DNA from: Deltaproteobacteria bacterium
GTDB lineage: Bacteria > Myxococcota_A > JAADFL01
Assembly (NCBI GenBank): GCA_013152945.1
Contig: JAADFL010000018.1
Span: forward strand, 1-64,000
Direction: 5' to 3'
DNA length: 64,000 nucleotides
In this document: positions 43,886 to 58,011 of the stretch, piece after piece
Position numbering within the stretch: the stretch's first letter is position 1
How the letters are laid out: every line of letters starts with the position of its first letter
Notes under the pieces: generated by a model
The model's input: only the letters and a program-made list of their open reading frames with translations
Database searches by the model: none
What the model was told of the DNA's origin: nothing
Translations under genes and position numbers: made by a program

Positions 43886-44995
43886 CTAGTCCCTTGGTAA
43901 TAATCTTTGCACCAACTCGGCTCTGGAGTAGACTTGAAGCTTACTGTATATGTGTTTCAGGTGGGTGTGCACGGTACCATGTGCTATGCCCAGGTGTTCT
44001 GCGATCTCCCTCTCTGTCTCTCCCTTGGCCGCCAGCATTGCCACCTCGCGTTCCTTGGCGGTCAAGCACGATGGCATTACGAGAGGCCTCTCCCCGACAG
44101 CAAGCACTTGGGCCGACTCGATGACAGCCAGCACGCCAACAAAGTCCGACTCGCTGTTACGCCAACATCGTAGGAGCAACGACTCTCCCGGCCGCAACAC
44201 ATCTGATAGGTCCATGGTCGAATAGAATGCGTTTACCGGGCGATTCAAGGCGTCCATGGCCGCTTTCCGCACACGTTTCAGGGCATGGTTGAGCCTGGGC
44301 ACCAACAGGTTAGCCGATAGCCTGGTAGATGGCACATGGAAACGGATTCGAGCCTCCTGGCTCAACCAGCACAATCGCCCGGTACGATTGAACAGGATCG
44401 CAGCCAGTGGAAGCCCTTTATCCAATGTATGAACCACCTCTGCCAGGGCGTGGTGCACCGGCCCCATTGCCCGCATGGACCGCAAGGCCTTCTCCACTAA
44501 TCTTGCCAACTCCAGGGCGCGGCGGCGTTCCTCACTGTCGAATGGGCGTTCCTTGATACTCCGACAGAGACCGGACAATGCCAATGGATCTCCTCGGTCT
44601 CCCAGTGCCAACACGAGCTGGCGTTCTATCTGGTAAGGCCTCCAGAATTCATTGTAGATTGTCGTTCGCCTAGCTTCCATCTCATCGACAATCTCGTACA
44701 CGTCCAAGACGCGCGTGCAGCGTCCGAATACGGCATCGATCGGACAAACCTCCTGGCTCTGGAACCGATTCAGTTCCACGAACCTGTTCCACATCTCGAT
44801 CCGGTCCGACCAGTCAAGGTCTTCCGCCCAGATCACCACGTCGTCAACCGTCAACACAGGGAAGCAACTGGCCGGGATGAAGTTGGCGTTCGTGATCCCG
44901 AACTCTTGTGCACTTTCTTCTATTAGGGCTTGGCCCAGCTCCAAGGGAGCCCCGGCTGCCTCTATGGCTTCAACACACTTTGTGGATGGCCACAC
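43886..44995 (-). CDS. LuxR-type transcription regulator 1
   Basis: 369 residues from a GTG start with GGAGG 8 bases upstream. The large N-terminal part (about 1-290) has no clear domain; the middle (ILFNRTGRLCWLSQEARIRF) looks PAS-like and may sense a small ligand. The C-terminus is a LuxR/GerE helix-turn-helix (LTAKEREVAMLAAKGETERE, GTVHTHLKHIYSKL). It is divergent from a second LuxR regulator and upstream of the Cys-rich gene pair in the same direction, so it may control that pair. No receiver domain is present. Confidence 0.85.
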   Translation of the reverse strand: MWPSTKCVEAIEAAGAPLELGQALIEESAQEFGITNANFIPASCFPVLTVDDVVIWAEDLDWSDRIEMWNRFVELNRFQSQEVCPIDAVFGRCTRVLDVYEIVDEMEARRTTIYNEFWRPYQIERQLVLALGDRGDPLALSGLCRSIKERPFDSEERRRALELARLVEKALRSMRAMGPVHHALAEVVHTLDKGLPLAAILFNRTGRLCWLSQEARIRFHVPSTRLSANLLVPRLNHALKRVRKAAMDALNRPVNAFYSTMDLSDVLRPGESLLLRCWRNSESDFVGVLAVIESAQVLAVGERPLVMPSCLTAKEREVAMLAAKGETEREIAEHLGIAHGTVHTHLKHIYSKLQVYSRAELVQRLLPRD

Positions 44996-45293: not shown

Positions 45294-46013
45294 ATGTTTC
45301 TTACCGAGATACTCGAGGCGCTAGCAGGAACACTGCCATATCCATGCGCAGTGTGCAGCAAGGATGGCGATATCCTTTGGATGAGCTTGGCCGTACCAGA
45401 TCTATTAACAGACGCACCAGGATCACAAGGCGGTTTTTGTAACGTTCTCTGCCATCAGGTATGCACCTGGTTTCAGCGTTACATGCATGCACACGGAACC
45501 AACACCGGCCCGATAGCAGTGCCGCGTAAAGAGCTGCCGGCCCTGGCGGACAGGCCGGACCTGCGGGTGCTCCAGGTGGAGGTGAAACCTATGGAGGGCG
45601 TCGGCAACAAGGGACAAGTCCTGCTCATAACCTTTCTGGGTGTCGATGGTGCGCCGCATGCAAACCGGTCGGGCAAACGTGGGAAATCTGTCGAGCCGGC
45701 CGCGACGCCGGCTATGCAACGACATGCCGGGCCTCGGGAACTCGGGAAAGAGAAGCAATCAGGAACCCTTCCCGCACTCGCACTACTTACGCCTAGGCAG
45801 AGAGAGATAGCATTGCTTGCGGCATACGGGTTCAGCGGCCCCAATATCGCGGCCAAGCTCGGTCTTGCCGAAGCAACGGTCTATTCACATCTCAAGCGCA
45901 TCCACAAGAAACTGGGGATTCACAATCGGGCCCAGCTTACCTGGCTCGTACTTGGGAGGAATCAAGCCTCTAACGACCATGGCAGGGCTCCTCACCTCGA
46001 TCTTGATAATTGA
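45294..46013 (+). CDS. LuxR-type transcription regulator 2
   Basis: 239 residues. The N-terminal half resembles a PAS-like module (PYPCAVCSKDGDILWMSLAV) with Cys residues. A basic, disordered linker follows (about 120-165). The C-terminal LuxR helix-turn-helix is clear (LTPRQREIALLAAYGFSG, ATVYSHLKRIHKKLGI). It is divergent from regulator 1 over a shared 298-base region, so the two may regulate each other. AAAATAGG lies before the ATG. Confidence 0.83.
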   Translation: MFLTEILEALAGTLPYPCAVCSKDGDILWMSLAVPDLLTDAPGSQGGFCNVLCHQVCTWFQRYMHAHGTNTGPIAVPRKELPALADRPDLRVLQVEVKPMEGVGNKGQVLLITFLGVDGAPHANRSGKRGKSVEPAATPAMQRHAGPRELGKEKQSGTLPALALLTPRQREIALLAAYGFSGPNIAAKLGLAEATVYSHLKRIHKKLGIHNRAQLTWLVLGRNQASNDHGRAPHLDLDN

Positions 46014-46574: not shown

Positions 46575-47543
46575 ATGTATAGAAACAAACGAGTCATGGT
46601 GCTCGGCAGTACGGGCTTCATCGGCACCAACCTCTCGGCAGCGCTCATCTCGGCCGGGGTCAGGCCTTGCCTCGTGGGTAGAATGCGCTCAAGACTTCGT
46701 TTGTCCGTGGAACCAGGCACATTTCACTTCGAAGAAGTTTCAGATCTTACACAACCTGACCTGGTGGAGGATCTGATTCTAACCCACCAGCCCCAGGTGG
46801 TGTTCAATTTGGTTGCATGTGATGTTGAATCCAGTGAAAAAAAACCGGAAAAAGCCCATGAAACAAACTGCAGGCTTGTCGAAAGAGCCGTAACGGCTGT
46901 TTCAGGCATCAATCCTGGAACATGGCAAGGGGCCAGGTTCGTTCATACAGGTACTGCTCTGGAATACGGCGCTGTTCATGGCCCACTGCACGAGGACGGT
47001 CCGGCCGTTCCTACAACCGTTTACGGCCGAACCAAGCTCGAGGGAACACTGACATTGAAGAAATTGGCTGCATCAAACGATATACCGGCAATAACCGCCC
47101 GCCTTTTTACGGTATATGGCCCGTTCGAAGCAGCAGGAAGACTCCTTCCCTACCTCGCCGGGTGTGCTGCATCCGGAAGGCCGGCCCGCCTGACACAGGG
47201 AATACAAAAAAGGGATTTCACATTCGTAGCCGATGTAGTGGAGGGCCTCTTGAGGCTCGGCGCGTGCAGCCGTCCGAGGGGTACTCCGGTAAACCTTGCC
47301 ACGGGAAAATTGACATCAGTATCAGAGTTCGTACAGGCGGCAGCATTGGTTCTCGGCATGCGGCCTGAAAAACTCCGGTTCGGCCAACTGGGCACAAGGC
47401 CGTGGGAGATGAAACACAAACCTGTAACAATCAGAAGGCTGCTCGATCTCACAGGATGGGCACCACTTACAATGCCTCCGGCAGGCATAGAAGAAACATT
47501 GGAATATTTGAATTCAATAATGCTGCAAAATGGTGAGGTATGA
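46575..47543 (+). CDS. NAD-dependent sugar epimerase/reductase (SDR)
   Basis: 322-residue extended short-chain dehydrogenase. The cofactor motif GSTGFIGTN begins near residue 11, and the catalytic Tyr and Lys appear in YGRTKLEG after a Thr-containing segment (FVHTGTALEYG). RLFTVYGP and RDFTFVADVVEGLL are family segments. Such enzymes epimerise or reduce keto-sugars attached to a nucleotide. The Met before KRVMVLG was chosen; a Met 14 codons upstream is equally free of a good ribosome site. The stop overlaps the next start by 4 bases, and it opens the CDP-sugar operon, where it could act on the product of the dehydratase. Confidence 0.9.
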   Translation: MYRNKRVMVLGSTGFIGTNLSAALISAGVRPCLVGRMRSRLRLSVEPGTFHFEEVSDLTQPDLVEDLILTHQPQVVFNLVACDVESSEKKPEKAHETNCRLVERAVTAVSGINPGTWQGARFVHTGTALEYGAVHGPLHEDGPAVPTTVYGRTKLEGTLTLKKLAASNDIPAITARLFTVYGPFEAAGRLLPYLAGCAASGRPARLTQGIQKRDFTFVADVVEGLLRLGACSRPRGTPVNLATGKLTSVSEFVQAAALVLGMRPEKLRFGQLGTRPWEMKHKPVTIRRLLDLTGWAPLTMPPAGIEETLEYLNSIMLQNGEV

Positions 47544-48262
47544 AAGACGAGAACATTCACAGCACACCCGACTTGTCCCTGGTCGTGCCTTGCTATAATG
47601 AAGAAGAATCAATCGAATCCACTGCAACCAGACTCGTGCGGGTTTTTGACCGGGCCAAAGTGGATCTCGAATTGATCTTGGTGGATAATGGATCAATTGA
47701 TTCAACCCCAAACATCATAAAGTCCCTCATGGCCCGTGGTCTTCCCGTGTCAGAGGCCCATGTACCCGTCAACATCGGTTACGGCAACGGTATTTTGAAA
47801 GGACTCGAAACCGCACGTGGCAGGTTCGTTGGTTTTACCTGTGCGGACGAACAGGTATCGGCCGAGGATACCTTGCGCGTGTATAAAAAGGCCGAAGCCA
47901 ATCCCTTCCCTGTTCTTGCAAAGGTACGCCGGAGATTCAGAAAGGACGGGCCAAGACGCAAGGTCATCTCCATAACCTACAACATCGCAGCCAACATCCT
48001 GTTTCCCGGGCTGGGCAGTATCGATATAAACGGCAATCCAAAGATCTTCCCGGGCCGATTGCTCGGCCTATTGAACCTCAAATCCAGGGATTGGTTCCTG
48101 GATGCTGAAATAGTCCTGAAGTGGAGAAGCATGGGCCTTCGGATTGTTGAATTCGATGTCCAGGCCAAGTCCAGGAGGGCTGGGAAATCCAAGGTCGGGC
48201 CGGCAACATGTCTCGAGTTTTCAATCAACATGTTACGCTATAGGCTAAAAAGGTTTAATTGA
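47540..48262 (+). CDS. GT2 family glycosyltransferase (DPM1-like)
   Basis: 240-residue glycosyltransferase of GT-A fold. LSLVVPCYNEEESIES and ILVDNGSIDSTPNII bind the nucleotide; the acidic pair appears as TCADEQ, and GNPKIFPGRLL with DWFLDAEI completes the acceptor side. Dolichol-phosphate mannose synthase-like enzymes of this size charge a lipid carrier with one sugar. There is no C-terminal membrane anchor. Both ends overlap its neighbours in the operon, so it may link a sugar to a polyprenyl phosphate for the polytopic protein further down. Confidence 0.92.
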   Translation: MKDENIHSTPDLSLVVPCYNEEESIESTATRLVRVFDRAKVDLELILVDNGSIDSTPNIIKSLMARGLPVSEAHVPVNIGYGNGILKGLETARGRFVGFTCADEQVSAEDTLRVYKKAEANPFPVLAKVRRRFRKDGPRRKVISITYNIAANILFPGLGSIDINGNPKIFPGRLLGLLNLKSRDWFLDAEIVLKWRSMGLRIVEFDVQAKSRRAGKSKVGPATCLEFSINMLRYRLKRFN

Positions 48263-48282
48263 CGAGCAATGGAAAGCCGAAC

Positions 48283-49554
48283 ATGAACAGGTTCAATGAA
48301 TTGCAGGACATTTTGTTACGCACCAGGTGCGGAGCCTGCGGCGCGAAACTCGAAGCACCGGTCATGTCTCTCGGTGGAGTTCCGCTTGCAAACGAGTTCA
48401 CTCATTGCAGTGCCGCCAAGAATCTTCCCGTCTATCCGTTGGACCTGTGCCTCTGCCATACCTGCGGCCTGTTGCAACTCGGGCACCTTGTGTCGCCATC
48501 CCGACTGTTTTCAAGCTATCCCTATTTGACCGGGACCTCCTCAACCATGAAAATCCATTTTGAAGATTATGCCCGGCGGGTAATAAAAGACGGGGCCTTG
48601 GACCCCGGAGACCTCGTAGTGGACATCGGCAGCAATGATGCAACATTGCTTCGTTGCTTCAAAGAGCTGGGCACAAGGATACTCGGAGTAGACCCGGCAA
48701 AGAACCTGGCGAAACAGGTCTCACAACAAGGAATCCATGTTATACCTGACTTTTTTTCAAGCAGGCTTGCCCGGCGAATCATGGAAGAATACGGCCCCGC
48801 ATCTGTAATAACCGCAAACAATGTGATGGCCCATGTGCCTGAACCATCGGATGTTCTGAAAGGTTTCAGCCTGCTTCTTGCTCCCGGGGGAAAGGTAATA
48901 GCCGAGGTTCCCTACCTGGCCGATCTCCTGGCCGGTACGGCATTCGACACCATATACCATGAACATGTAAGCTATTTTTCCGTATCGGCCCTGGTTCATC
49001 TTTTCAGAGGCGCAGGAATGGTTATTGAAAAAATAGTCAGGTTGAAAGTTCACGGCGGTTCCCTGAGAATAATCGCGGGCATGGCGACACACACAAAAAC
49101 AGGCCCGGAGGTCGAACAACTTGTCCGGCAAGAATCCAAGGATGGTTTGAGGGACCAGGTTACGATCGATTTGTTCGAAAAACGAGTTCGCTTTTTCAAA
49201 GAGCGCTTCAAGAACAGCTTGTTGAATTACAAAAAACAGGGCAAATCCCTGGCGGCGTACGGGGCCCCCGCCAAGGGAAGCATGTTGCTGTTTCACTGTG
49301 GAATCGGCCCGGACATCCTGGATTATACGGTCGATGCGAACCCGTTAAAACAAGGTATGTGTATGCCCGGCACGGCCATACCCATATTCCCGGTATCCAG
49401 GCTGAAGCAAGATCGACCCGACTTGTTGATCATTCTGCCCTGGAACATGGCTGACGAGATTATCAGACAGGAATCATGGTTTTCAGTACATGGAGGGAAA
49501 TTCATCATCCCGCTGCCACTGAGCAACTATGATCAGGCGGAGGCCAGGTTATGA
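48283..49554 (+). CDS. Sugar C-methyltransferase (TylC3/NovU type)
   Basis: 423-residue SAM-dependent methyltransferase that methylates carbon in nucleotide-linked keto-deoxysugars. The N-terminal zinc-binding part has C-x2-C and C-x2-C pairs (RCGACGAKL and LCHTCGLLQLG). The SAM site is LVVDIGSNDATLL. The C-terminal domain begins with SLAAYGAPAKGS, typical of this family. The Met of MNRFNEL was used; a TTG 24 bases upstream overlaps the previous stop. It lies between the GT2 gene and rfbF. Known relatives act at C-3 of 4-keto-6-deoxyhexoses, so the substrate may be CDP-4-keto-6-deoxyglucose. Confidence 0.92.
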   Translation: MNRFNELQDILLRTRCGACGAKLEAPVMSLGGVPLANEFTHCSAAKNLPVYPLDLCLCHTCGLLQLGHLVSPSRLFSSYPYLTGTSSTMKIHFEDYARRVIKDGALDPGDLVVDIGSNDATLLRCFKELGTRILGVDPAKNLAKQVSQQGIHVIPDFFSSRLARRIMEEYGPASVITANNVMAHVPEPSDVLKGFSLLLAPGGKVIAEVPYLADLLAGTAFDTIYHEHVSYFSVSALVHLFRGAGMVIEKIVRLKVHGGSLRIIAGMATHTKTGPEVEQLVRQESKDGLRDQVTIDLFEKRVRFFKERFKNSLLNYKKQGKSLAAYGAPAKGSMLLFHCGIGPDILDYTVDANPLKQGMCMPGTAIPIFPVSRLKQDRPDLLIILPWNMADEIIRQESWFSVHGGKFIIPLPLSNYDQAEARL

Positions 49555-50318
49555 AAACAGTGATACTTGCTGGAGGAAGGGGCACGAGACTCCTGGAGGA
49601 AACATCGATCAGGCCCAAACCAATGGTCGAAGTGGGAGGAAGGCCCATCATCTGGCATATTATGCACATTTACTCATCACACGGATTCAATGAATTCCTT
49701 GTGGCTTGCGGGTACAAAGGAGAACAGATAAAGGATTACTTCCATAATTTCTTCATAAATAACAGCGACTATTTTGTTAACCTCAAGGACAACACGAGTG
49801 AAATAGTCAAGCCTTCGGACGTCGATTGGAGGGTAGGTGCCATAGATACCGGAATCGACACCATGACCGGCGGCAGGCTTGTCAAGCTGAAAAAATGGTT
49901 GGAAGATGAGACATTCATGGTGAGTTATGGAGACTGTGTCTCAAATATTGACCTGCAAAAGCTGCTTCTCTTTCACAAGGAACACGGCAAGATCGCCACT
50001 GTCACCGCAGTTCGTCCTCCTGCCAGATTCGGGGCGCTCCAACTCGATAATGACATGGTACAGGAATTCTCGGAAAAGTCACAGGCCGCATCAGGTTGGA
50101 TAAACGGAGGATTCTTCGTGTTCGAACCACGAATCTTCGACTATCTCGATGGCGATGACTGTATATTGGAGAGGGACCCTCTCGAAAACCTGGCACAAGA
50201 AAGAGAACTCTATGCTTACAGGCACGAAGGATTTTGGCTACCAATGGATACGGTAAGGGACAAAGAAAGGCTGGAGACACTCTGGAAGACAGGAAAGGCT
50301 CCATGGAAGACCTGGTAG
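49551..50318 (+). CDS. rfbF: Glucose-1-phosphate cytidylyltransferase
   Basis: 255-residue enzyme that makes CDP-glucose from CTP and glucose-1-phosphate. LAGGRGTRLLEE and RPKPMVEVGGRP form the nucleotide-binding start; VSYGDCVSNIDL carries the metal-binding Asp; FGALQLDND, WINGGFFVFEP and EGFWLPMDTVRDK are conserved in RfbF/DdhA. ATGA overlap with the methyltransferase and a 16-base overlap with the dehydratase show tight coupling. It supplies the first committed step of the CDP-deoxysugar branch. Confidence 0.96.
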   Translation: MKTVILAGGRGTRLLEETSIRPKPMVEVGGRPIIWHIMHIYSSHGFNEFLVACGYKGEQIKDYFHNFFINNSDYFVNLKDNTSEIVKPSDVDWRVGAIDTGIDTMTGGRLVKLKKWLEDETFMVSYGDCVSNIDLQKLLLFHKEHGKIATVTAVRPPARFGALQLDNDMVQEFSEKSQAASGWINGGFFVFEPRIFDYLDGDDCILERDPLENLAQERELYAYRHEGFWLPMDTVRDKERLETLWKTGKAPWKTW

Positions 50319-51436
50319 GAAAATCCAGACTCGCCCATGCCTTCAAGGGCGGAAAAGTCCTGGTTACCGGCCATACAGGCTTCCAGGGAGGGTGGCTTTG
50401 CTTATGGTTGGATATGCTTGGGGCCGATGTGATGGGTTTCGGGCTGGAACCGGAAAAGGGTGAATGGCCCACTATTTTTGATGTAGTCCGACCGTCGAGT
50501 AACATGAAATCTATTACAGGGGATATTAGGTCCAGAAACCTGGTTCGCGAAGTAGTCCGTGATTTCAAGCCGGATTACGTTATTCACCTGGCTGCCCAAG
50601 CCCTGGTGGATACATCAATCGAACAGCCTGTATATACCCTCGAGACCAATGTCATGGGAACCGTAAACCTGCTTGACGCGGTCCTGTCATACGATGCTCC
50701 AAGGGCTGTACTGGCTGTAACCAGTGATAAGTGTTACAAGGCGACAGGCAAGAACAACACTGCCTTTACAGAAAATGCTCCCCTGGGCGGCAGAGACCCG
50801 TACAGCGCCAGCAAGGCCTGCGCAGAGATTGTAGTGCATTCATTTATGAGCAGTTTCATGAATTCGCATCTTGGTCGAAACAAACCCGTGTTTGGGATTG
50901 CAACAGCAAGGTCAGGCAACGTGATAGGCGGAGGGGATTGGGCCGAGTCCAGGTTGGTACCTGATTGCGTAAAAGCATTCAACGCCGGGAAGGCTGTTAC
51001 CCTGCGTATGCCCCAGGCGGTACGGCCGTGGCAACATGTGCTCCAGGCAATATCGGGTTATCTCTGGCTTCTGATCAAACTCGGCAAAGATCCGGGAAAA
51101 TTCTCAGGACCTTGGAACATGGGGCCATTGGATAAAAGCCATGTTCAAGTACGGCAACTCGTGCAAATAGCCGGCCGGTGCTGGGGACAATCCGGTGACT
51201 ATGTAGATCATCGTACCAGTGACTCTGTAGAAGAAGGATTACTTCTCCTGGACTCCACAAAGGCCAGGTCCTTGCTAGACTACAGGCAGGTATGGCCCCT
51301 ATTGACAACCGTGGACAAGACCATTGCATGGTATAAGGCGTGTATGCAAGACCGTGTAGATCTCCTGGAATTGTCGATGGAACAAATACAGGATTTCACC
51401 AAGGATGCACGAAAACTCGGCCTTGAATGGTGTTGA
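50303..51436 (+). CDS. rfbG: CDP-glucose 4,6-dehydratase
   Basis: 377-residue NAD-dependent dehydratase giving CDP-4-keto-6-deoxyglucose. GHTGFQGGWL binds NAD; HLAAQALVDTS, VTSDKCYK, GGRDPYSASKACAE (catalytic Tyr and Lys), ARSGNVIGGGDWAESRLVPD and RPWQHVLQ are typical of RfbG/DdhB. The start is ATG after AGGAAAGGCTCC. No RfbH-type dehydrase gene (needed for 3,6-dideoxyhexoses) follows, so the product probably goes to the C-methyltransferase or epimerase of the same operon. Confidence 0.96.
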   Translation: MEDLVGKSRLAHAFKGGKVLVTGHTGFQGGWLCLWLDMLGADVMGFGLEPEKGEWPTIFDVVRPSSNMKSITGDIRSRNLVREVVRDFKPDYVIHLAAQALVDTSIEQPVYTLETNVMGTVNLLDAVLSYDAPRAVLAVTSDKCYKATGKNNTAFTENAPLGGRDPYSASKACAEIVVHSFMSSFMNSHLGRNKPVFGIATARSGNVIGGGDWAESRLVPDCVKAFNAGKAVTLRMPQAVRPWQHVLQAISGYLWLLIKLGKDPGKFSGPWNMGPLDKSHVQVRQLVQIAGRCWGQSGDYVDHRTSDSVEEGLLLLDSTKARSLLDYRQVWPLLTTVDKTIAWYKACMQDRVDLLELSMEQIQDFTKDARKLGLEWC

Positions 51437-51465
51437 CATTGCACGTGCCGCCAGCCTCACGGAAT

Positions 51466-53397
51466 ATGAACAGCAGGAAAATATGCACCTGGAAAATTCT
51501 GCTGTGGACAGCTTATGCATTTGCATCGGTTTCGATTTTGTCAGCCCTTATTTTGCCGCCCGGCGATTGGGATCCTCTTTCATACGTACTTGCAAGGGCG
51601 GTAGTGGTTTTGCCAACCATGACCCTGTTGCCCGGACTTCCTTGGGCACTGGTTCTTTTCAAGAAACAATCAGGCAAGGCTCAACGCCTTGACATAATGG
51701 ACATTATTCTTTTGGGATTGGGGTTTTCCTTTATCGGTCATGTACTGGCATTAGTCCTGCTCAAACTGACCGGCTTTACCACGGTGTCCACAGCCCTGCT
51801 TGTCACAATAGTCTTGGAATCTCTCCCACCCGCTTTTTTCCTTCGAACAAGAAATATAAATATTAAGCTGGACCTCGCTTCAACGCCAAGAGCGGCAATC
51901 ATGGCTTTCATGATTTTCCTTGCCGGCATCCTTGGCATGGCTTTCTTGACATTTACTGATGCCTCGAGACCTGTTTACGGGTACTGGTACGATCACGCGG
52001 TGGAAAATGGTATTGTCTCGCCCAGTTGGGTTTCATTCAGCCATTCTCCAAGTTGGGGAAGGCCCGAACGCTACGGACCGAAAAAGGCGCCGGCTCTTGT
52101 TTTCAAACCTGTCCGAAATAAGTTGCCCCTCGAGGCAATGCAAGCAGGCAGCGCCAATTTGTTCTTCTTGTTACAGGCTCCTGTAGGCGCAAAAATCTCT
52201 CTGTTCAAAGAGGGTAGAATCATAGCAACCGGGAAGGTGGAGGCGCGGCCTGTCGAAAGCCCTGCGGAAGGACCGGTGCTTCGCTACCTGCATAACGGCA
52301 TAACTGCCATTAGGTCCGAGATTTCCGTCTCCCAGGGAGAAAAGCTCGTATTACGGGTGGATTCACCCCCCGGATTCAGGCTGGTGGATCTCACAAATGC
52401 AGGGAAACAAGCAATAAATGAATTGAATTCCACGGACTTGAGGGAAATACACTATTACCAGGAGCTGAATATTGCGGAAAACTATCTCTGGGTCAGGGAA
52501 ATCTTGAAAAACCGCTGGCTGGTAATCCACCAGCCTCCTTTCTGGACATATCTGTCAGCAGCCTTCAAGGTAATACTTGGACCACTGAATTATACTTTTT
52601 TCCTGTTAAGCCTTGTCATACTGGTCTTGACCGGCATGGCATGTATCAAGCTCGTCTATGTTTCAGAACCCGGGTCTACCCTTCCGGTATTGCTCGTGCC
52701 TGCCGTGGTAATACTGATGCAGCAAAAGTTGATGGCTGCTTCTTCATGCATTGTCTTCCCTGACCAGGCTTACTCCCTTACATTTCCAATGGCGCTCCTT
52801 GGAATAATGTATGGCGGGCCTTTGTTGTTCGGCACGTGGGGATTCTTATCAGGAATCTTGAGGTATCCCGGGACAATAGTCCTTTCTGCAGGTGCCTTGT
52901 TCCTTGGTCCGAACTTCAAGAGAACCAGGATGTTTCTTAAGGCGGCCTGGTTACCGATGGCTGCGCTCTGCATCCTGGCGACTGTTGCCGGCCTTGTTTC
53001 GGGCCATTTGACAGATTGGCTGAACGTGTTGTACTTCGAGACCTTTCCTGAACATTTTCATGGAAATTACGACCTTGGAACACTGGTCTCCAGAATTCCC
53101 GGTTTCTACCGGGAGATGCTCATGTGGAGCGGATTCATTCCTATTTTGTCTCTTGCCATGCTGTCCGGCACTGGAAGACGCCTTGCACTTTTTGGAATTT
53201 TCTATTCATTTCTGCTCAGTACAATAGACCATGTATCTCCTCACTATTTCCTGCCCATTCAGACCGTGCTCGCATGTTCGGGAGCATGTAATGTGTCAGT
53301 CATGATAAAAAAACGCCGGAGTAGGATTGCACCTGCTGTTGCGTGGATAATTCCAGTTTTTGGAATAGCCTGGCTGCTTTTTTCCGGCACAGTATAG
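51466..53397 (+). CDS. Polytopic membrane protein of the sugar operon
   Basis: 643 residues with roughly eleven predicted membrane helices: about five in the first 170 residues, a soluble, probably periplasmic, segment of about 170 residues, then the rest to the end. The Met before NSRKICTW was used. I do not recognise the family with certainty. The layout and the context suggest a GT-C-type glycosyltransferase using a lipid-linked sugar, or an export component. It is 29 bases after rfbG and likely its last partner. There is no clear catalytic Asp motif in the first loop, so the enzyme assignment is uncertain. Confidence 0.7.
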   Translation: MNSRKICTWKILLWTAYAFASVSILSALILPPGDWDPLSYVLARAVVVLPTMTLLPGLPWALVLFKKQSGKAQRLDIMDIILLGLGFSFIGHVLALVLLKLTGFTTVSTALLVTIVLESLPPAFFLRTRNINIKLDLASTPRAAIMAFMIFLAGILGMAFLTFTDASRPVYGYWYDHAVENGIVSPSWVSFSHSPSWGRPERYGPKKAPALVFKPVRNKLPLEAMQAGSANLFFLLQAPVGAKISLFKEGRIIATGKVEARPVESPAEGPVLRYLHNGITAIRSEISVSQGEKLVLRVDSPPGFRLVDLTNAGKQAINELNSTDLREIHYYQELNIAENYLWVREILKNRWLVIHQPPFWTYLSAAFKVILGPLNYTFFLLSLVILVLTGMACIKLVYVSEPGSTLPVLLVPAVVILMQQKLMAASSCIVFPDQAYSLTFPMALLGIMYGGPLLFGTWGFLSGILRYPGTIVLSAGALFLGPNFKRTRMFLKAAWLPMAALCILATVAGLVSGHLTDWLNVLYFETFPEHFHGNYDLGTLVSRIPGFYREMLMWSGFIPILSLAMLSGTGRRLALFGIFYSFLLSTIDHVSPHYFLPIQTVLACSGACNVSVMIKKRRSRIAPAVAWIIPVFGIAWLLFSGTV

Positions 53398-53472: not shown

Positions 53473-54447
53473 ATGGTTGTTGCTGTACGTGAAGTACTGG
53501 AGGTCAGGGGCAATCCCGACCTTGCAGAGGTCTATGTCGCCAGATTGCGTGAAGATCCAAGGACATTGGTTGAATTCGTGGATTCCATCGATCCCCGGTT
53601 TCCAAGAGAGGAAAAATGGGTGGTCACCGTGTCCACGCAATTCGGATGTCCAATGCGCTGCGCCATGTGCGATTCAGGAGATCACTATATCGGCAATCTT
53701 ACCGCCGATGAAATACTTTCCGAGATCGACCACGTGGTAAAAAAGAGAGCGCCTTCGGGAAAAATCGATTGCCCCAAGTTCAAGATTCAGTTTGCCCGTA
53801 TGGGCGAACCTTCTCTCAACCCCGGTGTACTGGAAGTATTGGAAAAGCTTCCCATTGTATATGATGCTCCCGGTCTCATGCCCTGCATCGCCAGTATCGC
53901 ACCCAGGGCGGGCAAGAATTGGTTTGAGAAATTAATGGAAATCAAAAATCGGATGTACCCGGGCGGACGATTCCAGTTGCAGTTTTCCATAAACACTACC
54001 AGCGAAGATGTACGCAACCGGCTGATGCCTGCATCCAAGTGGAATTTCGAACAAATTGCAGAGTACGGTGAACGATTCCACGAAACATCGGACAGGCGGA
54101 TCACGTTGAACTTCGTATTGGCAAAGAATCTTCCCGTGGATCCTAAAAAGGTCAGGTCGATATTTTCACCGGAACACTTCATTATAAAACTGACACCTTT
54201 GAATCCAACAGATGTTGCCAGAGCGAACAATCTCATGCCCACGCTGACTCCATCCGCCCCGAATGCAGCGGACGACTTGGCCGTGGAATTCGAGAACCTG
54301 GACTTTGATTGCATCGTCAGTATAGGAGCAGAGGAAGAGATCAGGATTGGAAGCAACTGCGGCCAGGCAGTGGCCAGATGGAGGAGACTGGAAGCCGTGG
54401 AATCCATGCAGGGCACGGGCGTCCTCTCCGGGGCCAGGCTGGACTAA
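53473..54447 (+). CDS. RlmN-like radical SAM protein
   Basis: 324 residues. A CX3CX2C cluster motif (C59, C63, C66 in GCPMRCAMCDSG) marks the radical SAM iron-sulfur site. FARMGEPSLNP and LQFSINTT match RlmN segments, and the C-terminal part SNCGQA keeps a single Cys at about 296, the position that in RlmN takes up the methyl group. However, the N-terminal helix-hairpin-helix RNA domain of true RlmN is lacking or reduced and the protein is about 30-40 residues shorter. It may be a paralogue with another substrate. GAGGAGG precedes the start. Confidence 0.83.
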   Translation: MVVAVREVLEVRGNPDLAEVYVARLREDPRTLVEFVDSIDPRFPREEKWVVTVSTQFGCPMRCAMCDSGDHYIGNLTADEILSEIDHVVKKRAPSGKIDCPKFKIQFARMGEPSLNPGVLEVLEKLPIVYDAPGLMPCIASIAPRAGKNWFEKLMEIKNRMYPGGRFQLQFSINTTSEDVRNRLMPASKWNFEQIAEYGERFHETSDRRITLNFVLAKNLPVDPKKVRSIFSPEHFIIKLTPLNPTDVARANNLMPTLTPSAPNAADDLAVEFENLDFDCIVSIGAEEEIRIGSNCGQAVARWRRLEAVESMQGTGVLSGARLD

Positions 54448-54951: not shown

Positions 54952-54986
54952 CAAGTGAACTGGCGAATTTGGTCAGGAGGCTTGCC

Positions 54987-56915
54987 ATGAAATCTCCAAC
55001 TCTATCAAGTAATTGGAAAAATACCACGATCCCTTTATTTGTTTTCCTACTTTTTGGAATACTGCTCCCAGGAGCCTCTCTGGCCCAATCAGGTTCTCCC
55101 GGCTTTGCAAAGGAATGGATCCGCAAGACCCCTTTTACCTTGATTGGGTTGAATATCTTGGCAAGTTCACTGGATGTCGATGAATACGTCGGGGCTGGTT
55201 TCCACGCTCTCCTGGCATGGGAGGAAACCGACAAGCAGGCAGCGATTTCAAGCAAGGGCGGAGTCCCCTGGCATGCGCACCTGCGCCCGGCAGACCAGGG
55301 GCCGACCGACTTCATCAAGAATCTTGCAATGGCAACCGCAGCTCATCCCGGAGGTCTCGGATGGCTCCTTCACGACGAGCCCAGCAGGCTCCAGATGCCG
55401 GGCATTGGACAGGTGGCGCAATGGCTTCGGGGTAAATATCCCAATATGCTGGTGTACTCCAATGCATTTCCGTCCTATGCCAGCTCGTCCCAGCTCTATG
55501 GTGACGGATCAAATCCGGGTTACTCGTGGTCACAGTACCTGGATGACTTTATAGCAATCATAAAGCCCGACCTGCTCATGTATGACCACTATCCATTCAA
55601 GTCGGACGGTACTACCGGCGATTCTTATTACAGCGACATGATGACCGTGCGAGACAAGGCCCTTGCAGCAGGTATACCCTATTGGACCTTTATTCAATCC
55701 TGGTCCGATCAGAACAGCAGGTCCCCCAGTGAATCAGACTTGAGGATGCAGGTCTTCTCGATGCTTGCGGCAGGATATACAGGTTTGGCCTATTTCACGT
55801 ACGACCACTTTCAAAACGGCGGACTGCTGGATGAATCCGGTAATCCTACCCAGTTGTACCACATAGTTGCAGATGTCAACCAAGAGGCTTCACACATAGG
55901 ACAAATCACAAAGTTCCTGGAGAGCACGGATGTAAGGTTCATCCCCGGTAAACACAAGTTCTTCAACATGATAATCAACAACAAAGTTCCCTCAGGGTTA
56001 CAGGTATGGAGCAAAGATGCCGGAGGAGATAACAATATCACATCGGCTTCCGTCGATTTCTCCAACGATGCCTCTTATGGAAAGGAAAGGAACGGCCTTA
56101 TCGGCTTTTTCAAGGATGACCAGGGCCGAAACTTCTTCATGCTGGTAAATTTGACTCATGGTGCAAATATCTCTTCAGAACAAGGCAGCCTGGATTTCGT
56201 TCTAGAGTTCGACCAATCCGTCGACCACCTTAGAATGCTTGACAGGCTAAATGATAAAACGCAACGCATAGCGTTGAATCAACATACCCTTAAGATCACA
56301 TTAAAGGGAGGCTGTGCCAATCTTTACAAGTACGATGATGGCGGCTTTCCGCCAAACAGTGATGCTGATACCGATATAGACACTGATACTGACACCGACA
56401 CTGATATCGATACTGATACGGATACTGACGCGGATACTGACACTGATATCGACACCGATACTGATACTGATACTGATACTGACGCGGATACTGACACTGA
56501 TATCGACACTGATATCGACACTGATACTGACATGGATACTGATACTGATACTGATACCGACACTGATACTGACATGGATACTGATACTGATACTGATACT
56601 GATACCGACACTGATACTGACATGGATACTGATACTGATACTGATACCGACACTGATACTGACATGGATACTGATACTGATACCGACACTGATATCGACA
56701 CCGACACTGATATCGACACCGACACTGATATCGACACCGATACTGATACTGATACTGACGCGGATACGGATACTGATACTGGCAAAGAGCAATTTTCAAA
56801 TGGTGGCGGCTGTGACTGTAGTATAAGCATTGCCGACACCAGGCAGCCTGATTCGTTTAATATAGGGTTTTTGCCTCTGTTCCTTGCAATTTTGCTGATT
56901 GCGAGGAAAAGATAG
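54987..56915 (+). CDS. Exported TIM-barrel-like protein, Asp-Thr stalk, MYXO-CTERM-like tail
   Basis: 642 residues. A signal peptide is cut after LPGASLAQ. The main part (about 40-440) resembles glycoside hydrolase-like TIM barrels: LGWLLHDEP with a candidate acid Glu, MYDHYPF, YWTFIQSW, GLAYFTYDHF. A 140-residue Asp-Thr stalk follows (about 459-598). The C-terminus has NGGGCDCS, then a hydrophobic helix (FNIGFLPLFLAILLI) and ARKR, the layout of MYXO-CTERM sorting signals. So the protein should be processed and displayed at the cell surface. Met 54987 was chosen because of CAGGAGG. The substrate is not known. Confidence 0.85.
   Translation: MKSPTLSSNWKNTTIPLFVFLLFGILLPGASLAQSGSPGFAKEWIRKTPFTLIGLNILASSLDVDEYVGAGFHALLAWEETDKQAAISSKGGVPWHAHLRPADQGPTDFIKNLAMATAAHPGGLGWLLHDEPSRLQMPGIGQVAQWLRGKYPNMLVYSNAFPSYASSSQLYGDGSNPGYSWSQYLDDFIAIIKPDLLMYDHYPFKSDGTTGDSYYSDMMTVRDKALAAGIPYWTFIQSWSDQNSRSPSESDLRMQVFSMLAAGYTGLAYFTYDHFQNGGLLDESGNPTQLYHIVADVNQEASHIGQITKFLESTDVRFIPGKHKFFNMIINNKVPSGLQVWSKDAGGDNNITSASVDFSNDASYGKERNGLIGFFKDDQGRNFFMLVNLTHGANISSEQGSLDFVLEFDQSVDHLRMLDRLNDKTQRIALNQHTLKITLKGGCANLYKYDDGGFPPNSDADTDIDTDTDTDTDIDTDTDTDADTDTDIDTDTDTDTDTDADTDTDIDTDIDTDTDMDTDTDTDTDTDTDMDTDTDTDTDTDTDTDMDTDTDTDTDTDTDMDTDTDTDTDIDTDTDIDTDTDIDTDTDTDTDADTDTDTGKEQFSNGGGCDCSISIADTRQPDSFNIGFLPLFLAILLIARKR
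56361..56780 (+). repeat. Asp-Thr hexanucleotide repeat tract 2
   Basis: 420 bases, 140 codons, mostly GAY-ACN, with Ile, Ala and Met replacements at regular places. Larger units recur, for example GACATGGATACTGATACT. It encodes the stalk of the TIM-barrel protein and is the longest of the three tracts. Confidence 0.95.
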
Positions 56916-56958
56916 GCACAGGACTGAAATCCTGAAAATTTTTTGGCAAGGCGTGATC

Positions 56959-58011
56959 ATGTCTTTTTCATCAAGAAAAGACCGGAACAAACCAAGAATA
57001 CTTGGAGTCGTGCTTTTGTCATGTTTACCCATGTTTATTCTTATTCATTCAGGATGCGGGTCCAACAAAAGTGAAAGCAAGGGTTCTGACACTGATGTCG
57101 ATCTGGACCTGGACATGGATATCGATACTGACGTGGATTTGGATTTAGACCTCGATATTGATACGGACACGGATACTGACACTGACACTGACACCGACAC
57201 TGACATTGATACTGACACTGACACCGACACGGACATTGATACTGATACTGATACTGACACCGACACTGACACTGACATTGATACTGATACTGACACCGAC
57301 ACGGACACGGATACTGACACGGATACTGACACGGATACGGATACCGGGAATGTACAACCGCCTCTTGGCGGCTCCTCCATGGGTGCCATAGGACCTGATT
57401 CGCCGGGAATACACCGCTTAACGGCACAAGGTATCAGCTTCAACGCAATAGTCCCCAACAATTACACCAGGACCAGGCCCACGGCTCTCTTGGTCGTTTT
57501 CTCCGGCACAGAAGGAGCATCGACAATGACCAACAACCTGTTGGGTGCTGGTCCTTATGTAGGACTTGGGGATGTCCTGGCAGCAGTGATAGACGGAAAG
57601 ACCTATTACGGCCGTGGAGATGCAGGAGCTGCAGCCCTCGATGACATGAGAAAACGTTATAATGTGGACAATGACAGGACGTACCTGCTCTCGGAATCTG
57701 CAGGAACCACTGCAGGACTGTCTCTGGGTTTCGATTTGAGGCAGTCTTTTTTCGCAGCCTTTTGGGCCAACGATGTCAATGCCCGGGCAACGCCAAAGAA
57801 AACATCAGCCCAACTGGGCTTCAGGCCTTGGGGTAACGCAGGTCCGGGGGGCGATCTTGCGGATGCGAATGCAATTGTTCAGGCTATGAAAAACAAAGGA
57901 TACAGGTTAGCCGCTGATGCGCCTTACAGCGGGTCCGGCTCAAATCAACATGGTTCATCAGACCAGTTTTTTGCTGCCTTAAAATTCTTTGTAGGAAAGT
58001 CAAGGCAATGA
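56959..58011 (+). CDS. Asp-Thr-stalked alpha/beta-hydrolase-like lipoprotein
   Basis: 350 residues. The signal ends in IHSGC, so lipid anchoring is likely. An acidic stalk of about 86 residues begins with Asp-Leu and Asp-Val pairs and changes to Asp-Thr. The C-terminal domain (about 145-350) looks like an alpha/beta-hydrolase: TALLVVFSGTEG, a nucleophile elbow LSESAGTTAG with Ser, and a late His in NQHGSSDQFF. A carboxyl-ester or polyhydroxyalkanoate/feruloyl-type esterase is possible, but the substrate cannot be named. It starts 43 bases behind the TIM-barrel gene and overlaps rmuC by 4 bases. Confidence 0.82.
   Translation: MSFSSRKDRNKPRILGVVLLSCLPMFILIHSGCGSNKSESKGSDTDVDLDLDMDIDTDVDLDLDLDIDTDTDTDTDTDTDTDIDTDTDTDTDIDTDTDTDTDTDTDIDTDTDTDTDTDTDTDTDTDTDTGNVQPPLGGSSMGAIGPDSPGIHRLTAQGISFNAIVPNNYTRTRPTALLVVFSGTEGASTMTNNLLGAGPYVGLGDVLAAVIDGKTYYGRGDAGAAALDDMRKRYNVDNDRTYLLSESAGTTAGLSLGFDLRQSFFAAFWANDVNARATPKKTSAQLGFRPWGNAGPGGDLADANAIVQAMKNKGYRLAADAPYSGSGSNQHGSSDQFFAALKFFVGKSRQ
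57088..57345 (+). repeat. Asp-rich hexanucleotide repeat tract 3
   Basis: 258 bases, 86 codons. The first third has Asp alternating with Val, Leu, Met and Ile, and the rest with Thr. The gradient suggests that the tract has an older, drifted part and a younger part. Confidence 0.9.

Follow-up and report, generated by a model that had tools for sequence, protein, structure and literature searches.

A six-gene bacterial operon that probably makes a methyl-branched sugar from CDP-glucose and appears to pass it to a membrane lipid

Background

The sugar 3-C-methyltransferases TylC3, TcaB9 and MtmC of the mycarose and tetronitrose pathways act on dTDP-dideoxy sugars for antibiotics, and their family also includes 5-C-methyltransferases such as NovU. 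In Sinorhizobium meliloti, SMb21416, SMb21417 and SMb21418 are annotated side by side as ddhA, ddhB and an NDP-hexose 3-C-methyltransferase (PMC4053727). The virenose of Coxiella burnetii LPS is a 3-C-methyl-6-deoxyhexose in a surface glycan, for which a TylC3-type enzyme has been proposed (PMC3539893, PMC3204966). Three-component periplasmic glycosylation consists of a polyprenyl-phosphate sugar synthase, a flippase and a GT-C glycosyltransferase (PMC11127046). A literature search found no paper on C-methylation of a CDP-activated deoxyhexose.

The operon described here lies in a window of 64,000 nucleotides, the whole stretch of DNA that was analyzed. Its methyltransferase shares the fold family, the order of domains and the active-site motif of TylC3, TcaB9 and MtmC, but the substrates differ, in that its partner enzymes would supply a CDP-6-deoxy sugar that retains O2. 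The S. meliloti genes form the same ddhA-ddhB-3-C-methyltransferase neighbourhood as is found here, known there as annotation only, while the virenose pathway has been proposed to run through dTDP or GDP sugars, in contrast to CDP here. Like three-component periplasmic glycosylation, the operon joins a gene of the polyprenyl-phosphate synthase class, a GT-C-like gene and sugar genes; unlike it, the sugar and the GT-C family are different and a search of the genome for GtrA (PF04138) found no flippase gene. The single steps resemble known chemistry, and the full combination seems to be undescribed. The six overlapping genes very probably make a rare methyl-branched sugar from CDP-glucose, and appear to pass it to a membrane lipid for attachment outside the membrane.

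Organization of the operon

Six genes are located on the plus strand within positions 46575-53397, in the order SDR, GT2, C-methyltransferase, rfbF, rfbG and polytopic protein, a pattern not due to chance. From 5' to 3', neighbouring genes overlap by 4, 4, 4, 16 and 10 nt. The preliminary description had proposed an operon of coupled genes at this place, which agrees with these overlaps. It had, however, put the GT2 gene downstream, whereas this is the second gene, between those of the SDR and the methyltransferase, and instead of the several polytopic proteins that it mentioned a single one is present (51427-53397). The genes listed around the operon encode regulators, a radical SAM protein and surface proteins and do not resemble a polysaccharide locus.

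Synthesis of CDP-4-keto-6-deoxyglucose

The rfbF product (49551-50318, plus strand) scored above the curated equivalog cut-off of TIGR02623 (374.5 versus 300.25 bits) and matched glucose-1-phosphate cytidylyltransferase (PDB 1tzf) over its full length with an E value of 2.1e-89. The rfbG product (50303-51436, plus strand), a CDP-glucose 4,6-dehydratase homolog, likewise exceeded the equivalog cut-off of TIGR02622 (391.9 versus 278.45 bits) and matched PDB 1rkx (E 5.9e-87). It carries TSDK...YSASK, corresponding to the CDP-type fingerprint [ST]DK...YxxxK, which has been given for CDP-Glc dehydratases as [ST]DKxnYx3K (PMC8987622, Table 1). The start of rfbG was placed at the ATG at 50303, the longer TTG start at 50234 being unlikely; it is the one RfbG gene of the genome. 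Based on these matches, RfbF would form CDP-glucose from Glc-1-P and CTP, and RfbG would convert this to CDP-4-keto-6-deoxyglucose. This assignment, already made in the preliminary description, is supported.

The same description had noted the lack of an RfbH-type dehydrase. Such an enzyme, if encoded at a distance, would convert the RfbG product to a 3,6-dideoxy sugar, leaving the methyltransferase to act elsewhere, and as the draft genome (218 contigs) is 94% complete, there is some room for one. Searches of this draft with PF01041 and the RfbH model NF011936 gave no RfbH. The best NF011936 score was 127 bits against a cut-off of 423, and all DegT/DnrJ relatives with a readable active-site segment have the PLP lysine, its replacement by His being the criterion for an RfbH (E1) dehydrase. 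A distant RfbH was rejected on these grounds and is extremely improbable.

The C-methyltransferase and its predicted product

The third gene (48259-49554, plus strand) encodes a TylC3/TcaB9/MtmC-type sugar 3-C-methyltransferase. Domains PF08421, PF13489 and PF08484 were all above cut-off, giving the full architecture of Zn-binding N-terminal domain, SAM domain and C-terminal Methyltransf_14 domain. The best PDB match was 4rv9, the D-mycarose 3-C-methyltransferase MtmC (E 6.6e-89), and TcaB9 was matched with an E value of about 1e-71; the similarity to both spans 400 residues, including the active-site motif. The YHEH motif and the conserved Tyr are present, and the Cys pairs C24/C27 and C66/C69 are conserved. 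The three domains, the motif and the MtmC match bear out the enzyme type named earlier. Translation may start at the ATG at 48283 (after GGAAAG) instead of the TTG at 48259. There is one such methyltransferase in the genome, at the operon. A phage origin was considered and rejected, as phage records gave distant homologs only (<35% identity).

The enzyme would remove the proton of C3, which adjoins the 4-keto group, and add the methyl group of SAM, yielding CDP-3-C-methyl-4-keto-6-deoxyhexose. C3 is the presumed site of methylation. Placement of the methyl group on C5 or another position, as in the NovU branch, would be compatible with the Pfam domains, which are common to 3-C and 5-C enzymes, but it is very unlikely given that the closest solved relatives are 3-C enzymes and that the 4-keto group introduced by RfbG makes the proton at C3 more acidic. 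Based on the RfbF and RfbG scores, the CDP-type fingerprint, the architecture of the methyltransferase and the lack of RfbH, all observed in the sequence, the simplest product would be a CDP-linked 3-C-methyl-6-deoxyhexose, as had been suggested. It is simplest to assume that the methyltransferase acts on the CDP-sugar, the single RfbG and the single methyltransferase both being encoded here.

The SDR and the configuration of the sugar

The first gene (46575-47543, plus strand) encodes an SDR of the extended type which matched PF01370 (E 6.5e-38) and fell below every NCBIfam equivalog cut-off. It had been called an SDR epimerase; the first part of this name stands, while the second goes no further than a fold-level label. 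The protein has TGTALEYG...YGRTK, that is the Thr/Tyr/Lys set without the [ST]DK or [ST]DE dehydratase pair, and is 37-43% identical to the SDRs adjoining methyltransferases in five other loci (L138, L147, L047, L154 and L158). It would reduce the 4-keto group of CDP-3-C-methyl-4-keto-6-deoxyhexose. Alternatively, the methyltransferase itself could carry out this reduction and the SDR could epimerize the completed CDP-sugar at C4 or elsewhere. MtmC, the closest solved relative, is reported to reduce the 4-keto group besides methylating, and the structure model of the SDR was nearest to 4-epimerases (UDP-sugar 4-epimerases) and 4,6-dehydratases, a likeness not decisive between epimerase and reductase. 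We consider this alternative unlikely, however, as the residues required for simple ketoreduction are all found in the conserved partner SDR and, to our knowledge, TcaB9-type relatives with the same motif have not been reported as bifunctional.

As neither a C2 nor a C3,5 epimerase is encoded in the operon, C2 and C5 should stay D-gluco. Four products are possible, namely 3-C-methyl-6-deoxy-D-glucose, -galactose, -allose and -gulose, of which the gulose form is D-virenose. A CDP-type dehydratase, a methyltransferase of the same family and an SDR also occur together in clusters of the order rfbF-rfbG-methyltransferase-(RfbC-like epimerase)-SDR (L172, L175, L176, L179, L184, L185 and similar). 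These have an RfbC-like 3,5-epimerase that the operon lacks, for which reason the product of the operon should have the D configuration; their SDR is also more distant from that of the window (about 29%).

Proposed transfer to a lipid carrier and beyond

The GT2 (47540-48262, plus strand) matched PF00535 (E 6.7e-20). Its family profile matched ArnC (1.9e-25) and DPM synthase (1.3e-21), both full length, over profile positions 4-223 or 4-224 of 229 with the C-terminal half included, and the GtrB-type protein sll0501 over most of its length. Its placement with the polyprenyl-phosphate sugar synthases ArnC and DPM synthase is supported by these profile matches. In two genomes of the phylum (L133 and L134) GT2 homologs lie directly before rfbF without any methyltransferase, which ties the GT2 to the CDP-sugar. 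It is proposed that the GT2 transfers the sugar from CDP to polyprenyl (undecaprenyl) phosphate, and that the lipid-linked sugar is flipped across the membrane by a carrier.

The polytopic protein (last gene, plus strand) had no Pfam, NCBIfam or PDB sequence match, and a Pfam scan of all 29 homologs gave nothing convincing. Its AF2 model (mean pLDDT 89, pTM 0.90) had ALG9, ArnT with undecaprenyl phosphate, Emb and Pmt4 as top Foldseek matches (E 3.5e-3 to 9e-3, probability 0.97-1.00), a moderate match to the GT-C fold with a best E of 3.5e-3, a TM-score of about 0.33 and no supporting Pfam family. A periplasmic beta-sandwich insert is predicted at residues about 204-321, and QPP and E351 are invariant in the 29 homologs. 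Based on the predicted fold, the protein is proposed to be a GT-C glycosyltransferase, which would place the sugar onto an acceptor outside the inner membrane. To regard the GT2 and polytopic protein as generic surface-polysaccharide genes, as was done before, is incomplete: the former resembles a polyprenyl-phosphate sugar synthase and the latter a GT-C transferase.

The same CDP-3-C-methyl sugar could also be used by the GT2 as a cytoplasmic Leloir transferase on a growing glycan, with the polytopic protein as a polymerase, ligase or other membrane protein. The GT2 also matches generic family-2 transferases and is without membrane helices of its own. Elsewhere in the phylum, genes for homologs of the polytopic protein do not adjoin rfbF, a point which also counts against the lipid-carrier reading. 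Even so, the GT2 profile fits ArnC and DPM synthase full length and better than any Leloir transferase, the best folds for the polytopic protein are GT-C, and the listed neighbours hold no polysaccharide locus, all of which make this use of the sugar rather unlikely. For the whole route, in which the operon makes one C-methylated 6-deoxyhexose and delivers it from the CDP-sugar through polyprenyl phosphate and the GT-C to an extracytoplasmic acceptor, we estimate a probability of roughly 0.5.

Related loci

L138 and L147 show the order SDR-GT2-methyltransferase-rfbF again, together with a different GT-C, while L154, L158, L047 and L132 contain parts of this cassette. The SDR-methyltransferase core occurs in Chloroflexota, Acidobacteriota and Planctomycetota as well as in a second genome of this phylum. 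The methyltransferases of the six SDR-linked loci group together in a single clade (94/72; as low in 0 of 500 label shuffles). A profile comparison gave no significant support for common descent of the polytopic protein with the L147-type GT-C (E 0.12), although the QPP of the former lines up with a PPP.

Very tentatively, and with the odds somewhat against it, the cassette may represent an undescribed lipid-carrier route in at least four phyla, by which a CDP-linked 3-C-methyl-6-deoxyhexose passes to polyprenyl phosphate and, through varied GT-Cs, to an extracytoplasmic acceptor. In the lineage of the window, a classical RfbG would have replaced the usual divergent CDP-type dehydratase, and the GT-C would have given way to a family known to date from this phylum alone. 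If true, the operon would provide a compact enzyme set for a branched deoxysugar of defined D-configuration, extend polyprenyl-phosphate/GT-C glycosylation to CDP-sugars, and open a poorly assigned family of methyltransferases to enzymatic tests.

Candidate genes for CDP-deoxyhexose C-methylation are widespread across bacterial phyla. The preliminary description had regarded CDP as unusual compared with dTDP, but among the dehydratases with a recognisable motif beside close homologs of the methyltransferase 32 were CDP-type and 2 dTDP-type. Since CDP-type dehydratases are the commonest recognisable neighbours and the S. meliloti neighbourhood was already annotated, CDP is not unusual for this type of methyltransferase.

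Gene organization

Six plus-strand genes occupy 46575-53397 in the order SDR, GT2, C-methyltransferase, rfbF, rfbG and polytopic protein, with successive overlaps of 4, 4, 4, 16 and 10 nt. The gene inventory of the preliminary description stands, except that the GT2 gene, which it had placed downstream, is the second of the operon. The start of rfbG is probably ATG 50303, and the methyltransferase may begin at ATG 48283, preceded by GGAAAG, as an alternative to TTG 48259.

Two divergently placed LuxR/GerE-type regulator genes lie upstream (43886-44995, minus strand; 45294-46013, plus strand). A gap of 75 nt separates the operon from a divergent, RlmN/Cfr-like radical SAM gene (53473-54447, plus strand; CxxxCxxC), whose product scored 53.5 bits with the RlmN model, far below the cut-off of 290. 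Surface-protein genes also lie downstream. Two consecutive genes (54969-58011, plus strand) code for products with extended Asp-Thr (DTDTD) repeats; the product of the first has a Cys-containing, hydrophobic and basic C-terminal tail resembling a sorting signal. The neighbouring genes inspected differ from those expected in a polysaccharide locus. The source genome is a 4.84 Mb draft (218 contigs, 94% complete), with which its nearest relatives among those compared share only the phylum.

Predicted biosynthesis of the CDP-sugar

RfbF and RfbG scored above the equivalog cut-offs of their respective NCBIfam models and matched a solved glucose-1-phosphate cytidylyltransferase and CDP-glucose 4,6-dehydratase, respectively, at about 1e-85 or better. 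RfbG, present as a single copy in the 94% draft, carries TSDK...YSASK; the published fingerprint of CDP-glucose dehydratases is [ST]DKxnYx3K, and that of dTDP-glucose dehydratases is [ST]DE (PMC8987622 Table 1). The absence of RfbH noted from the operon was borne out when a distant rfbH was sought genome-wide: as far as the 94% draft can tell, the 3,6-dideoxy branch is absent, because the RfbH model gave no match near its cut-off and the DegT relatives with a readable segment retain the PLP lysine, the residue absent from RfbH.

The methyltransferase (METHYLTRANSFERASE) has the complete three-domain set of sugar C-methyltransferases and is the sole Methyltransf_14 protein of the genome. Its closest solved relative is MtmC (4rv9, D-mycarose 3-C-methyltransferase), followed by TcaB9, and it keeps four cysteines, the substrate-loop tyrosine and the YHEH motif. 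From these relatives and the 4-keto group we infer methylation at C3.

The SDR was assigned to no equivalog model and lacks the dehydratase residue pair. Its structure model (pLDDT 83) most closely resembles UDP-sugar 4-epimerases and 4,6-dehydratases and does not discriminate between epimerase and reductase; since the operon has no other reductase, it is most economically assigned as a putative 4-ketoreductase. Many related clusters have an RfbC-like 3,5-epimerase between methyltransferase and SDR, whereas this operon has none; the genome has a single RfbC-like gene, on a different contig (C167) and within a few kb of an RmlB-like and a DegT-like gene. C2 and C5 should therefore keep the D-gluco configuration, which leaves four possible products, D-virenose included.

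The CDP carrier, thought unusual in the preliminary description, is less special than claimed. The neighbourhood survey comprised 93 loci: 91 were centred on a methyltransferase homologue (80 from named genomes, 11 from others), and the remaining two, L133 and L134, were GT2 loci without a methyltransferase. Of the 93, 45 had rfbF nearby. Dehydratases with a readable motif within 5.5 kb of the 91 methyltransferase loci were CDP-type in 32 cases and dTDP-type in 2, a count that describes this methyltransferase branch rather than the family as a whole, since the sample consists of best homologues and the search detects only SDRs resembling the queries. In addition, S. meliloti SMb21416-21418 (ddhA-ddhB-3-C-methyltransferase) is already in a published table (PMC4053727). 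No report of C-methylation of a CDP-deoxyhexose was found in the literature searched, subscription literature being mostly outside the search.

Probable transfer of the sugar

The operon is real and the proposed chemistry its best reading; added here are a probable delivery by lipid carrier and GT-C glycosyltransferase, and the occurrence of the cassette in several phyla. A nine-member GT2 profile gave full-length matches to ArnC (1.9e-25) and DPM synthase (1.3e-21), and matched a GtrB-type enzyme over most of its length. The GT2 is tied to the CDP-sugar by L133 and L134, where its homologues directly precede rfbF without a methyltransferase.

Pfam, NCBIfam and PDB gave no sequence match to the polytopic protein (51427-53397). 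Its confident model, from a 29-homologue alignment (pLDDT 89, pTM 0.90), best matched the folds of ALG9, ArnT with undecaprenyl phosphate, Emb arabinosyltransferases and Pmt4 (E 3.5e-3 to 9e-3), all GT-C, and includes a beta-sandwich at about residues 204-321, followed by a helix with the conserved E351 and by an invariant QPP. Since the fold match is moderate, the protein is graded as probably GT-C. The family, represented by 29 loci (L103-L131), is present in 32 of the 237 genomes sampled from the phylum, with no match in plasmid records; in some of them it adjoins an SDR gene and another GT-C-like gene.

Taken together, the GT2 profile, the L133/L134 adjacency and the GT-C fold matches suggest a route in which the GT2 would move the sugar from CDP to polyprenyl phosphate and the polytopic protein would pass it to a periplasmic acceptor. 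Three-component systems follow the same route from polyprenyl-phosphate sugar to periplasmic acceptor (PMC11127046); no GtrA flippase was found in the 94% draft.

Recurrence of the cassette

The SDR-GT2-methyltransferase-rfbF set recurs in Chloroflexota (L147), where a dehydratase of CDP type and a polytopic protein matching PMT_2 weakly, below threshold, accompany it, and in Chloracidobacterium (L138), which shares the polytopic family of L147 and has a B12-radical SAM gene as well. Parts were found in Planctomycetota (L154, L158) and in a second genome of the window's phylum (G016; L047, L132). When 97 methyltransferases were placed in a tree, the six from SDR-linked loci grouped together (94/72; 0 of 500 label shuffles gave so low a value), although the one from the window has a long branch. 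The relatives with a visible dehydratase have a divergent CDP-type enzyme, as in L147, whereas the window has a classical RfbG, which suggests that the dehydratase was replaced within the cassette in this lineage.

A B12-binding radical SAM protein adjoins the GT2 in two distant genomes (L138:5112-7163 and L132:8699-10720; 61% identical) and may be a second enzyme that modifies the same lipid-linked sugar.
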